Positions 17,220 through 53,844 of a DNA stretch of 64,000 bases are shown here, piece by piece. The position numbers and the translations under genes were made by a program. This DNA comes from Coffea arabica. Its lineage: Eukaryota > Streptophyta > Magnoliopsida > Gentianales > Rubiaceae. Numbering within the stretch: the first letter of the stretch is position 1; every line of letters starts with the position of its first letter. The notes beneath the pieces were generated by a model, which had not been told where the DNA came from, searched no databases, and worked only from the letters and a program-made list of their open reading frames with translations. The DNA lies in the NCBI RefSeq assembly GCF_036785885.1, contig NC_092317.1, forward strand, positions 3,040,501-3,104,500. The letters run 5' to 3'.

Positions 17220-17619
17220 CAGCGGCAATAGCAGAGGAACCGCCAATTTCGGAACCAGGAATCGAACAGGCTATCTGGTACAAGATGGATGGAAATTTTT
17301 GTAATAAATTGGAATTACTGCATCCCCCGAACCTTTAAAAAGCTACTGTTGTATAAAAAACCCTTTGTCCCCTTGAAAAATCAAGGGATAATTTCAGAAA
17401 CAATTTCCCTCAGCTCCCCTTAAGTTTATATAATTACATTGACCTCCCTAGGTGCAACAAAATTACTAGAATTTCCTTTACTTAATTAGTTGATTCATAA
17501 AGAAAAATACCATATCACTACGACCAGCAAAACATTCCCAGTTGTCTTATAATCTACAGTCGCCTCCTTTCACCTCTCTCTCTAACTCCTCTCCTTCATT
17601 AACCATATAGACTAAGGGC

Positions 17620-19217
17620 GGAAGCCCGGTGTCCACGTCGGACGTGGTCGTCCTCCGCGTGGCGAGACGGGATTGGCTTGATGGTGACGTGGCGCGAGGT
17701 GATTGGTGGCGAGTTTGGCTTCGTTGCAAGTGATTTTTTTGCCCTTCGCCTTTCCTTCCGTTTTTCCCTTCGTCATTCCTTCCGTTTGGTGTCGACGTTT
17801 TCGGTGGAAGTCAGTGAACTGCTCCACCAACCCTGCCCGCTGCAGACCCACTCCAAACTGCTTCCTTGAAGCGATGGACTTGAGATGACCACTCAGTCCC
17901 ATACATTCTTTAGCCTCTCTCTCATACATTGTGCATTCCCGAAGATTTGGTCAATGAGATATCTGAAGAGATCCCCATCAAATTCAACTTTCCTGTTCTC
18001 TTCTCTTCTTCCATCTCCCTTTTGTTACAGGAGAATAGATGCTGAAAAAATCAGTTGAGCCATAGTGTTCTTGTGCTATAAACATTCCTTGATCTGATCT
18101 AATTTAATCAATTTTGCTTGCTTAGGTTTTTGTCCGAGAATAGAACTCCTCTTATTCTCCCTAATTTTTTTCCCTCATGTGTTGGAAGGTGAGAATCATG
18201 TACTCACGAGGTTTGTTTTCCCCCTCGGTTTTATTATCCTTTTTTTCCCTTGTCCATATTTCTTCCTTATTTTAACCCTTCTTGTCATAACCGTTTTGTT
18301 CCTTTTTTTTCGCAGGAAATCTTTGTCGCCCTTTAAGGAGAGGAATGGGTTTTATTTTTTCTCTCAGTTTTACTTCCTCTTTTTTTCCTCTTATGCATAA
18401 TTTTTTCCTTACTTTCTTGCCATAACTGTTCTGTTTTTTTCTTTTTTCCACAATAAAACTTCGTTGCACTTTAAGAAGGGAAATAAAAAATTTATTAATG
18501 TTTTGTCTCCTTGTCTTATTGCCTAGCTTGATCTGATTCATGCATCTTGAAGAGCAATCGTCCAGGAGGAGAAAAGGAAAGAATAGTTTGATGCTGTTGG
18601 CTTCAGGTTTTTCTTCATTTTCTTCATTTTTTATGGTATTTTTGGTATTTTTCGTCGGCCGAGATTGCTACAAGAAGGATAAGAAGTGTTGCTTGAGTGC
18701 TCAAAATAAATAGATACTATAAGGAAAGCAAGAGAGGCAGAAAGAGGAGAGAAAATAGAACACCCGAGCTCGAGCGAAAATGAAAGCGAGGTAATTATTG
18801 AAATCAGGAAACTGAGAATAGTGCTGGAGTTGCAGCCAAATCTTAGACTTATCGGAAGTCAGAGAAATTTGCTGCTCCAGCCCAACTGATTTGTCCAATT
18901 AGAAATGCCTCAAATTTCTTACTCAGAGCCCAAGCTTTAAATCTTGAATTTTTCTTGTACCTTCGATTTAAATAGCCTCAGTCCCAAAAAAAATTGGGGC
19001 CTTTAGTCTAAATTACCTGTAAATTTGCTATCTTAGGCATTTATGACTCATCTAATGTCACCTCCGCTTAATACCATCTATCTTTGCTAATTGGTATCCT
19101 CTCTTTTGCTATCATAAACTTCCCAGCGAGCCCTGCAATGGAGTAAAAATTGTAGCATTCCAGCTAAGCATTTTCTTCTGGGGGATAGATCTTGAAGATT
19201 AGCTTCAAGATATAAAG
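17620..19217. other. Helitron interior upstream of the captured gene
   Basis: GC-rich near 17620-17720, then pyrimidine-rich (18170-18450). It may hold the promoter and leader of the captured GH79 gene. No open frame here resembles a known protein. Confidence 0.4.
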
Positions 19218-20890
19218 ATGGGTTATTTAGTTGTGTACTACGTGGGATTGTGGATATGGTTGTCTTTGTTTAGTTATAGCTCCATTTTCGTGTACTCTGA
19301 GATTGTAAAAGACACTGGAACATCCCAAGGCTTTGTATTTGTAGATGGGATTAGTGCCATTGGAGAAATAGATGACGATTTCATTTGTGCCACCTTGGAT
19401 TGGTAGCCACCTGAGAAATGTGACTATGGAACCTGTAGCTGGGACCATGCTTCCCTTCTCATTCTGGTACTTTCCATTTTCCTGCATTTGCAGCTATTTT
19501 GTGTCTCATGTTTATGTCAATGCGTGTGTGTGTGTGCCTTTTTTAATGTTACCTGCAAGCTTACTACGTTGGTATGCTGAAGTTGTTGATGGATTTATCC
19601 ACCTGAACCAATGCCGTCTTTTATAACAAGGGGATGATGGCTTGTTTGAGCTGTATATTTCAGCTTCAAATTCATTTCCGGTTAAAAAGATGTGATTTTT
19701 ATGCTTTAGATGGTGTGTCAGAAAAGTTTTTTGATGGCTGCGAATTCCACTCTGATGCTTTCAGCAATGAAGTTGTAAAAGGGGAAGAAGACAATACTTG
19801 TCGCTTATCATTTATGCTCTGTTTTGTTTGCCTTTTGATTAAAGTCCAAAAGATCTTGATTGTGTTCTGAGAGAGATGTTATCGAATTTCAAATTGTCCA
19901 AAATCATTCTGGGCTATTATATGTGTGACCAATTTGAATTAAAAAATTAGTGTTTAATGGACTGGTTTGATCTGTTTCTTGTTTTATTTGCAGGATCTTA
20001 ACAACATAATTTTATTAAATGCAGTAAAAGGTATTAACTTTTTCTAGCGTTCTTGATTACTAAAAATGGCATTCTAACGTTATAGTCCCGTTATGGGAGC
20101 TCAAGTTGCTATCTTCCCCTAATTTTGCAGCTTTTTCGCCATTAAAGATTAGACTTGGGGGCACCCTGCAAGATAATGTCATATATCAAACTCAGAGTAA
20201 TCAATGCTGCCATTCATTTGTTAAGAATTCCCCAGAGTTGTTTGGCTTCACTCAAGGGTGCCTTCCTTCGTCTTGATGGGATGAATTAAACTCCTTTTTC
20301 AAGAAATCTGGGTACATAAGAAGCACCACCTTGGTTAGTTAGACTGGTAATTATTTATCATTATTCTCATCGATCTGAAATTAATGAATCATTGTCTTCA
20401 TTCCTGGGCTGAAATTATATTTGGTTTGAATGCTCTGAATGGGAAGAGAATAAGGTCCGATGGTTCAATAGTTGGAGCTTGGGATTCCTCAAATGGTGAA
20501 GCTTTTATTCATTACATTGTTGAAAAGGGCTACAACATATATGGCTGGGAACTTGGTAATATCATTTACGTTTCTATGGTTAGCCTGCTGCAGAAATGCT
20601 TCTTCTCTGTTTTTATATAGTTTTTTCAAATGATTTAGATAGCTTGAGATTAGTTTCGGATGGTAATTTTTCATCATCTATTTTGGCCAGGGAATGAACT
20701 ATCCGGCGGTGAAGTTGGGACAAGAGTTGCACCTGATCAGTATGCTTCTAATACAATCGTACTACACAACAAAGTACTAGAAATCTACAAGGATGTAGCA
20801 AACAAGCCAATTGTTTTAGCGCCAGGAAGATTCTTTGATGTCAACTGGTTTACAGATTTTTTGCACAGGACCAACAACGCTGTAGATTTG
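19218..20890 (+). pseudogene. Heparanase-like glycoside hydrolase family 79, 3'-truncated and dead
   Basis: Recognisable exons: 19218-19466, 19994-20030, 20131-20311, about 20408-20555, and 20691 to about 20890. They begin with a signal-peptide-like MGYLVVYYVGLWIWLSLFSY, then [45 protein letters not shown], and GWELGNELSG, which contains the acid/base Glu of GH79. The family is about 540 residues; here homology stops after about 300, so the nucleophile Glu and the C-terminal beta domain are missing. Two in-frame stops are visible: TAG at 19404-19406, where the family has Trp, and TGA at 20274-20276, where the family usually has Arg (a CpG-type change). The acceptor before the fourth exon lacks an AG. 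Intact relatives are secreted enzymes acting on glucuronides such as arabinogalactan sugars or baicalin. The fragment sits inside the Helitron, so it is probably captured DNA. Confidence 0.8.
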
Positions 20891-21944
20891 TATTGGAACA
20901 GATTGCCTTTCTTTTTTTATTTAAATCAGATGGTGAAAATGATTTGCCTCACCTACTTATGTGCCTATAATTTGTTGAAGAAAATGACCTTTTGTTTATT
21001 CAGCTTAACCTAAGCTTTCGCCTTTCTTGGATTTCTTCTGGAGCTGGAAGCAAAAATGGCCACCCGTGAAAAACAACTGGTGAGGGAAAACGTAAGTTTT
21101 GTTATATCATTCTGATTTAATTTTTTCCTTTAAATTGCTCTCTTCAGACCTGGTATGCTTTCTCTTTGGTTATTTTCTTTGGCCTTTGCTCTTTTCAAAC
21201 TCATTCAAATTTTCTTTTTAATCATTTTTTGGCGTCTTTCACGCAGGTATTTTGTTGATCTTCTCAAAAAAAGCAATGTATATGGTAACTAAAAAGATTT
21301 ACTTGTTTAAAATATATTTCTTCATCTTCAAAATGTCTTTCTTTTTGCTTCGGTTCTTCCGTTTCTTTTTCCTTCACTGGGTTTCCAACACTTGAAGAAC
21401 TAATGAATTTCTTCTCTAGGAATTCTGTGCCAAGTTGGTCATTGGCCAAAATTTTACGTTACAAAAGATCTTGGGATGCTACTCTTTTGAATGCTTTGTG
21501 TTGAATTTTATGTCTTTTAGCACAGAAAATTGTCTCTTGTTGAAACCTTTTGAATATTTGTTTTACTAGCCTTAAGTGGATATTAAATCAAGTATTTTCG
21601 GCAATCTTTTATTGATTAATTGTTTCTGATTCACTAGATCTTATAAATGGTTTTCCTGTTTATAGGTGATTAAAGGTTTGCCCAAGATAAGGATTCTCAA
21701 ATATTAGATTCTAAGCACCTGCTTGAAATAGTAAGTAAGTTATTGTTTTAATTAAACACCTTAAATGTTCTATTCATTCACCAGAAAAAGAATTTTTTAC
21801 ATTTTTACAACGTCTGTATAATTACGACTTCTTTCCAGTGCAACTGCTTTTTCACTTTTATTCCTGTATAATATAGCTCCTTTTTTTACCCCTATTCTTC
21901 AGTCTCACAAATATTACTAGCTAACATTAACTGGGCATGTATAC
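20891..21944. other. Helitron interior downstream of the GH79 fragment
   Basis: AT-rich sequence. Homology to GH79 is lost after about 20890. No gene was seen, only the approach to the Helitron hairpin. Confidence 0.4.
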
Positions 21945-22951
21945 CACCGCGCAAGGCGCGGTGTTACCACCTAGTCTCATATTATGTATCACTAGATTCA
22001 TAACCACCATGCTCATCACTATCCCTCTCATTTCCAATATCCATTCCAAGTTCTGCTGTCTCTCGTCTTCTTATTTTATTACTTAAGTCCTTTATTTCTT
22101 CACATTCTATTGCAAATATTAGCAAATGCTGATTCAATAGAAAGCAAAGAACAGAAAAAAAAATTTCTTCATTATCAAATTAAATAAGGAGAGGATGGCA
22201 AATATAAAGAATAAATTTGAAACTGTTGAAAGTAAGAGAGACCGAATGATTGGTATATTGTTGTGTCTATTTATTCAAAAAAATTTATTAGAAATATATA
22301 AAAAAAAATTAATAGATATCCATAACTGCATTTGTTGCCAAAAAAATGAAAAACAAAAATGAAAAATGCATCTTTCTGTTTTTGATTTGCTACTGTGAAC
22401 ATTGGTTTTTTATGGAGATAGAATTAGTCTCTAATAGAGATTATGGAGTAATAATGGGTTATTCTTTGGGTCACGGTGGCATTGCTCCTAGTATCCATAT
22501 AGGTGGTGATGAGCTAGATTAGCTATTGCTAGTAGGTTGAGAAAATTGTAGGCAGGCTTTTAGATTTTTTAAGTGGGATTATATTTGATCTCGTAATTTT
22601 TAGTGAAAGCGTTTGGACAGCAAAATGATTCTAAGGCCGCAAATATTGTTAAAATCACTTGAAATGGAGACTAAGCTATAAATAATAGTTTCCTCAATTG
22701 GCTTGGTATGGTGACAAGTTTGCAGTGGTTTTAGAAAAAGAAAATGTATGTGATTAAACTAACTTTTTTATCTTTGTTGTTATGTCAAGGGTATATTAGG
22801 ATTTTTGAAGAGAAATGTAGTACATTGGGTCTATATAGTTATCTAAATAGTAAAAGTAGGGGAGGTATATATAATTTTTAAAATTTAAGAGGAGGTGACT
22901 GCAATTGTTATAAACCTCAGGAGAAGTTTGTGAAATTATCCCAAAAATCAA

Positions 22952-52638: not shown

Positions 52639-53844
52639 GGGTTAATTTCACATAACTCCCCTGAGGTTTTTAACAATTGCAGAAAGCTCCCCTCAAATTC
52701 TAAAAATTATACTTACGTCCCCTATTTTCATTATTTAAGTAATATTCTAGACCCAAAAGGTTATACTTTTTCCCAAAATTTCTATAATACCCTTGAGTTA
52801 TAATTCACAACAAAAATATAAAGGAAAAAAATGGTTTACAGTCTCTATTTCATTTATCTTTATTTCCTACCACTATTACCTACTTTTCAACATCCAAATT
52901 ACCATTAAATAAACATTTATCTTTGTTCTAATGTTCCTGTTTTACTTAAAAAATTTTCGATACAGACCATTGTATCAACTATAAACGTTACATCATATAC
53001 TCAAAAACTTACCTACAATCTCATAACAATATCAGATTTTACTTAATATACTACAACATTCATCAATATTCCTAAATTTCAATTTCATGACTGCCACCTT
53101 TTTAATACAAAATAATCTAAACCGTCACTATTAATATCAATATCCAATATATTCCATTGGCACAGAGTTCAAAATCAATCAAATTCTCTCTATAAGAATA
53201 ATATCAATAATTGTAAATCAAAAAATAGAAACTCAATGTAATTATAAATATATACCAAGAACATTTTTTTTCATAATAACCATAATGGTATAACTTATAT
53301 TTAGTTCCTATTCCATTTCTTGTCCTTAATTTTTATTTTTTTATCACTGTAACTATCTTCATTTCCATCTAATTTGATAAAGAAATTAGCACTCAATTTG
53401 TCATTTGACAATTTCAATTTGCTAATACCTATTAAAATTTGGAAACAAAAATGGGTGCAAGGAAACCATTTACTAATAATGAAAAATCGAGGATTGGAAA
53501 TAGATACTAAGATATATAAGTATTGGTGGTTTAGTGTGTATAGTGATTTTATTAGTAACGACAGTACACATTTGGTTGATAATAATAGATAAATGAGTTT
53601 AAAAGAAAAATAAATATATGAGAAAGAGAATAGATAGTTAAATAGAAAAGACCGTGGTTTGAATTATTGGTTAATAATCGATGAGAGATTTTAATATTTG
53701 ATAGAGTTTTTCAATGAGTTGACAATTAATAAAGGACATTATTGTCTTTTTATCACAACAAGGGAGGTCTATGTAATTATATAAACCTTAAGAGACCCGA
53801 GTGAAATTATCAAAAACCTCAGGGGAGGTTTCTGAAATTATTCC
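52639..53844. mobile_element. Mutator-like element (family 1, copy 2), uninterrupted
   Basis: The ends GGGTTAATTTCACATAACTC and, in reverse, GGAATAATTTCAGAAACCTC are flanked by a perfect 9-bp duplication TTTATGGTA (52630-52638, 53845-53853). Sub-terminal blocks CTCCCCTGAGGTTTTTAACA and TTTATATAATTACAT are shared with copy 1 (17385-22942) in inverted orientation. It is 1206 bp, AT-rich, with no transposase. It stands where the UTP5 promoter or leader should be. The degenerate telo-box TTAGGGGTTT at 52624-52633 overlaps the duplicated target. Confidence 0.85.

Follow-up and report, generated by a model that had tools for sequence, protein, structure and literature searches.

A Helitron-type element nested in a Mutator-like element of Coffea arabica, from a family read mostly at TYA^T target sites

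A 64,000-nucleotide stretch of the Coffea arabica genome (hereafter the window; NCBI RefSeq assembly GCF_036785885.1, contig NC_092317.1, positions 3,040,501 to 3,104,500 of the forward strand) contains two nested transposable elements: a non-autonomous Mutator-like element (MULE, 17385–22942 in window positions, which we use throughout) and, within it, a 4376-bp non-autonomous Helitron-type element (17599–21974, plus strand, TTAACCATATAG...CTAG). The nesting is real, and uninterrupted counterparts show directly that the MULE inserted first and the Helitron-type element second, without target duplication. Across the copies that we read, members of the Helitron-type family lie preferentially at TYA^T (Y, C or T; the caret marks the insertion point) and begin with TT. 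An initial annotation, made from the window sequence alone, had described a Helitron inside a MULE; its observations were partly confirmed and its interpretation partly supported.

The MULE is flanked by identical 9-bp target-site duplications (TSDs; AAAAATCAA at 17376–17384 and 22943–22951) and ends in terminal inverted repeats (TIRs; GGGATAATTTCAGAAAC and GGGATAATTTCACAAAC), in which 16 of the 17 end bases are alike by eye and the inner portion is weaker (76% over 50 bp); the perfect duplication around matching TIRs that the initial annotation reported therefore stands. Flank repeats of 9 bp were found in all four other MULE copies read, with a mismatch in one and none in the remaining three, although these four are not fully independent of one another. 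In both its 9-bp duplications and its imperfect TIRs the host MULE resembles non-autonomous MULEs with GGGATAATTTCA ends. Its two halves were searched separately (left, 17385–17595; right, 21975–22942) against the genome, in which C1–C22 denote large contigs (the window lies on C8) and L-numbers fetched loci. The same MULE locus was found on another chromosome, uninterrupted and without the Helitron-type element (C7:3065079–3066265), with identities between C7 and C8 of 96.4% over 976 bp in the left flank, 92.1% over 456 bp in the right flank, and 94.0% over 1201 bp in the MULE, and with TSDs (AAAAATGAA left, AAAAATCAA right) near-identical to those of the window.

The C7 junction reads CTCTCCTTCATCTCATATT, and this sequence or a near variant joins the two MULE halves, a few bases apart and free of the Helitron-type element, in nine distinct places (L022–L030). 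Six dispersed copies (L035–L040, two of them adjoining on C11 with equal scores) align through the junction at 85–90% identity; overall, the left part (17385–17598, plus strand) is joined to the right part with its TIR (21975–22942, plus strand) in L022–L030 and L034–L040. A tenth MULE place (L048) is rearranged beyond reading, and at least three further places match the left part only as far as 17559. Comparison of the empty site, CTCCTTCA^TCTC, with the window junctions (CTCTCCTTCA / TTAACC...CTAG / TCTCATATTATG) places the insertion between A17598 and T21975 (TTCA^TCTC), with a one-base ambiguity from a shared T, no duplication, and no target bases lost. Once the insert is removed at these boundaries, the MULE measures 1182 bp.

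Since the same-site MULE on C7 is uninterrupted and dispersed MULE copies lack the Helitron-type element, the MULE came first, in the order that had been proposed from the window. Its presence at one site on both C7 and C8 further implies that the MULE insertion predates the split of those two chromosomes. The Helitron-type insert is present on C8 only, and its relatives on C14 and C21 show 98.8–98.9% identity with it across 1600 aligned bp, a smaller distance than that between C7 and C8.

To delimit the Helitron-type family, we searched with the last 100 bases before 21974 (best 40 of 50 candidate places retained) and with a query starting at 17553 (best 40 of 92). The 80 loci fetched gave one end apiece (41 5′ ends and 39 3′ ends), and removing places fetched twice left 40 distinct 5′ and 36 distinct 3′ ends, the window being counted in both. 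The distinct 3′ places are not all independent insertions, as copies at C8:46.1 Mb and C7:49.5 Mb have common flanks. The last 100 bp of the element matched all 40 places retained in the 3′ search, and the 36 distinct 3′ ends read CTAG in 35 cases and CTCG in one, with T as the next base in every case. Because distinct family copies end alike and all precede T, the 3′ end at 21974 is secure. It lies 11 bases beyond a hairpin (21945–21963, plus strand, CACCGCGC-AAG-GCGCGGTG) with a perfect 8-bp stem and a 3-nt loop (DNA fold −10.7 kcal/mol, z −3.3). The hairpin and CTAG/T end of the initial annotation, including its expectation of other copies ending at this CTAG, are hence borne out among the best 40 candidates. 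A 179-bp 3′ terminal module (21796–21974, plus strand) is 79–95% identical in copies with non-matching DNA upstream of it.

At the 5′ end, matches to the query began mostly around bases 37–51, and two at bases 24–28, among the best 40 of 92 candidates. Aligned family copies are alike from TTAACCATATAG onward and divergent upstream, save for a recurrent TYA, and 39 of the 40 distinct 5′ ends start with TT. The 5′ terminal module spans 17599–17672 (plus strand), similarity extending to about 17663–17772 among the copies compared. Given that the MULE runs through 17553–17598 in nine uninterrupted places and that family homology begins at 17599, we set the 5′ end at 17599. The TCA at 17596–17598 (plus strand) is thus MULE sequence and not part of the element, and the corresponding bases are TCA in seven of the nine uninterrupted places and TCG in two.

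Other ways of reading this locus were weighed against these data. The initial annotation had started the Helitron at 17553 (TCTACAGTC), where a TC does follow an A by eye. This start is refuted by the empty sites and retains virtually no probability: the stretch 17553–17598 continues in the nine uninterrupted MULE places, and the other 5′ ends share the element only from 17599, TYA aside. The earlier call was therefore 46 bp off. As it had predicted, MULE sequence carries on past the junction, but at 17598 rather than 17552. A start at 17596 (TCATTAACC), with three matching target bases lost on insertion, would yield a textbook TC and accounts for the TCA ahead of TTAACC in 17 of the 40 distinct copies. 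We consider it quite unlikely, given that 12 copies carry TTA and 11 other trinucleotides, that seven of seven clean empty sites (described below) hold the copy's own trinucleotide, TTA and TCC among them, and that one copy (L086) directly follows the CTAG of another element with no intervening TCA; it was dropped on the empty-site evidence. Finally, the nested layout is by itself compatible with a joint arrival of the two elements or with a MULE formed around the Helitron-type element, but we regard either as highly implausible: the MULE occurs without the insert both at the same site on C7 and in dispersed copies, and an exact loss from C7 would be needed. To our knowledge, Helitrons would not be expected to leave a site so precisely.

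Next, we evaluated the bases preceding the element across the family. Among the 40 distinct copies, these were TCA in 17, TTA in 12, TAA and TCT in three each, and CCA, ATA, TAG, TCC, and TTT in one each. We then counted 37 insertion events, setting aside L072 (flank 94.7% like that of L070), L086 (directly behind another element's CTAG), and L088 (base 1 missed by the alignment). These included TCA 16 times, TTA 12 times, TAA three times, TCT twice, and CCA, TCC, TTT, and ATA once each, i.e., TYA in 28 of 37 events, with T at −3 in 35. When the element was preceded by A (33 events), TY stood before that A in 28, whereas TYAT makes up 16.6% of the AT sites in those flanks (167 of 1006; binomial p = 1.4e-17); the TYAT share of AT sites in the rest of the window is 15–16%. 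Empty sites were examined for 10 of 18 prepared paired insertions, in addition to the window, and six of the 10 were clean (CTCA, GTTA, CTTA, CTCC, TTCA, and CTCA, with ^T next in every case). In all seven clean sites, window included, the copy's own trinucleotide was already in place; six of these were TYA, the insertion fell at A^T in six and at C^T in one, and none had a duplication. As all seven sites had the trinucleotide beforehand, it is part of the target, and the first bases of the element itself are TT.

Several observations weigh against this target preference or narrow its basis. Nine of the 37 events are not TYA, and neither is the clean CTCC site, so the preference is not absolute. 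The GTTA site (L011) was read against dispersed repeat copies rather than a homologous locus; L012 gave the left half of an empty site alone (GAGTCA^TATATA); and the comparison yielded no site for L018 and L085. Between L019 and its C22 counterpart there is a difference of 13 bp, seemingly an additional unit of a host tandem repeat. The 5′ query also held the window's own TTCA, so that a slight bias toward TCA-flanked copies is possible among the best 40 of 92 candidates. This last point, together with the 40 of 92 candidates scored, is what favors an account in which the TYA excess merely follows from AT-rich insertion regions or from the copy-finding procedure. We find that account improbable, given the 28 of 33 A-flanked events set against AT sites of the same flanks and the 12 copies with TTA, which the TCA of the query would help little.

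A different flank arrangement was seen on C4 (L059/L060, C4:47039575–47064273), where family ends stand 24 kb apart and both flanks carry an abutting 16-bp perfect repeat (TCCTATTGTTTAACCA), explicable by a pre-existing host repeat or by an unusual staggered insertion. We make no claim of target duplication from the flank repeats of L019 or L059/L060, either of which may be an older host repeat.

We hypothesize, tentatively and at somewhat less than even chances, that recognition bases found at the 5′ end of other Helitrons have shifted from element to target in this family, such that the enzyme reads the flanking T-Y-A and cuts right after it, favoring TYAT. If so, this would be a eukaryotic rolling-circle transposon with site selectivity, intermediate in function between the relaxed Helitrons and the site-specific IS91/IS608 elements. 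IS91 and IS608 insert site-specifically without target duplication (PMC5876387), IS608 recognizing a tetranucleotide (PMC5934647); both are bacterial and lack the helicase, and the likeness drawn here to the window family is one of described insertion behavior.

The order and boundaries above fit a two-step history. A short non-autonomous MULE inserted with a 9-bp duplication before C7 and C8 separated, and later, on C8 alone, a non-autonomous Helitron-type element entered it at TTCA^TCTC. An HUH/helicase (RepHel) protein supplied in trans may nick at the 5′ TTAACC, and copying would presumably be of the rolling-circle kind. By analogy with Helraiser (PMC4778049), CTAG and the hairpin before it would signal where strand transfer stops, and either the transferred strand itself or a circle derived from it would then be inserted at a target recognized as T-Y-A^T. 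Transposition itself was not observed. Taken as a whole, we hold this explanation, i.e., MULE first and then a Helitron-type insertion at a TYA^T site through a RepHel protein acting in trans, to be very probable.

A candidate source of this protein lies on C4, where a PF14214 (Helitron_like_N) match (C4:61664503–61665048, minus strand, 199.9 bits, among the best 150 of 763 candidates) sits between a 5′ end and a 3′ end of the family that share one strand and stand 17.4 kb apart (C4:61651503–61668896). Against a single autonomous element, this span could represent two elements. Since 150 of the 763 candidates were scored, other partners may exist. Separately, C8:523936–558333 contains three Helitron_like_N matches on one strand, spaced exactly 16,926 bases and each within a 1126-aa open frame, possibly a tandem array of autonomous Helitrons.

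The element shares with canonical Helitrons a CTRR end, a hairpin 10–15 nt from the 3′ end, insertion at A^T, and the absence of duplication. The canonical 5′-TC start is absent, which weighs against a plain Helitron assignment; with the other features present, we call it a Helitron-type element, or variant, and not a canonical Helitron. Helentrons and Helitron2 elements insert between T and T, a feature that the family lacks, the base at −1 being A in 33 of 37 events. Plant Helitrons, those of maize, rice, and wheat (Xuan-Feng) among them, are described with a CTAG end, an upstream hairpin (at 11 nt in Xuan1), A-T insertion, and no duplication (PMC13286980; PMC2575219), and the window element has in common with them the CTAG, the 11-nt hairpin spacing, the A^T insertion, and the lack of duplication. 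In the same papers, canonical plant Helitrons begin with TC or TCT, maize flanks having no consensus beyond A (PMC2575219), and wheat Helitrons start with TC (PMC13286980), whereas the window family begins with TT at TYA^T. The bat element Helraiser/Helibat1 likewise has an A^T target, CTAG, and a 3′ hairpin, but it differs in its TC start and in a target logo beyond AT that is described as AT-rich (PMC4778049).

Circles of Helraiser join CTAG directly to the 5′ end (PMC4778049), a junction that can be likened to two CTAG-TTAAC head-to-tail joins. In L086 (C16:1277950–1278385), another Helitron-like 3′ end (hairpin, CCTCCTAG) abuts the family TTAACC head to tail, and in L092 (C5:7864326–7864750) the family CTAG is directly followed by TTAACAATATAG, which resembles a diverged 5′ end in a second head-to-tail arrangement.

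In a literature search covering titles and the starts of abstracts of the papers listed, with wheat and bat logos available by description, no TYAT preference and no TT-starting plant family was recognized. The usual left-end signature of Helitrons is 5′-TC after an A, and a TT-starting family lying behind TCA or TTA can thus be mis-bounded or missed; the earlier 17553 call exemplifies such mis-bounding by the TC rule. A four-base preference that a single genome shows at occupied as well as empty sites also provides a natural system for studying target choice by a Helitron transposase.

Between its terminal modules, the element interior is a mosaic, its fragments having matches at three or more other loci and all lying on the plus strand. 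A fragment at 18670–18881 is also found at C17:43617745–43617956 and C18:40687995–40688206 (97%). Next comes the 5′ portion of a GH79 heparanase-like gene with both exons and introns (18881–20884, ~2.0 kb; C12:6219079–6221395, 93–94%; C11:7280182–7282486, 89–94%), with Pfam PF03662 in four of the five pieces submitted; the C12 and C11 gene carries more GH79 exons past the captured part. A dispersed-repeat fragment completes the mosaic (20883–21794), its best other copy (C3:64484984–64485895, 95%) diverging beyond 21794. At the two fragment joins for which both sources were read, the sources overlap by 1 and 2 bases by eye. The retained introns suggest capture at the DNA level, if capture is how the fragments arose, as in maize Helitrons, which also carry captured gene fragments (PMC2575219). 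A literature search found no paper joining Helitron and heparanase.

An in-frame TAG interrupts GH79 exon 1 in the C8, C14, and C21 copies, making an intact GH79 product unlikely; there is none in the same match of the C17, C18, C1, and C10 copies. Downstream of about 18150, and through to the 3′ end, the mosaic recurs on C14 and C21 at 98–99% identity. These two copies have no match over 17673–18148 and longer spans (6.0 kb), indicating that the left part of these relatives differs. More diverged copies of the mosaic occur on C17 (92–95%) and, in pieces, on C18 (93–94%); the mosaic would have been assembled before C17 and C18 split, provided that those two sites correspond.

Elsewhere in the window, the region 52639–53844 had been taken for an uninterrupted copy of the MULE and for an independent check on the Helitron 5′ end. 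It aligns with the host MULE over one stretch of 186 bp (75%) and two shorter ones of 86 and 84 bp (77–78%), mostly in inverted orientation, and its interior gave no blastn alignment to the MULE, i.e., the two are related at their ends only and the check fails. Because this interior does not align, the agreement in length noted earlier (about 1.14 versus 1.21 kb, the former now corrected to the 1182 bp given above) is weak evidence. The region is a second element with GGGTTAATTTC ends, flanked by eye by a 9-bp duplication (TTTATGGTA).

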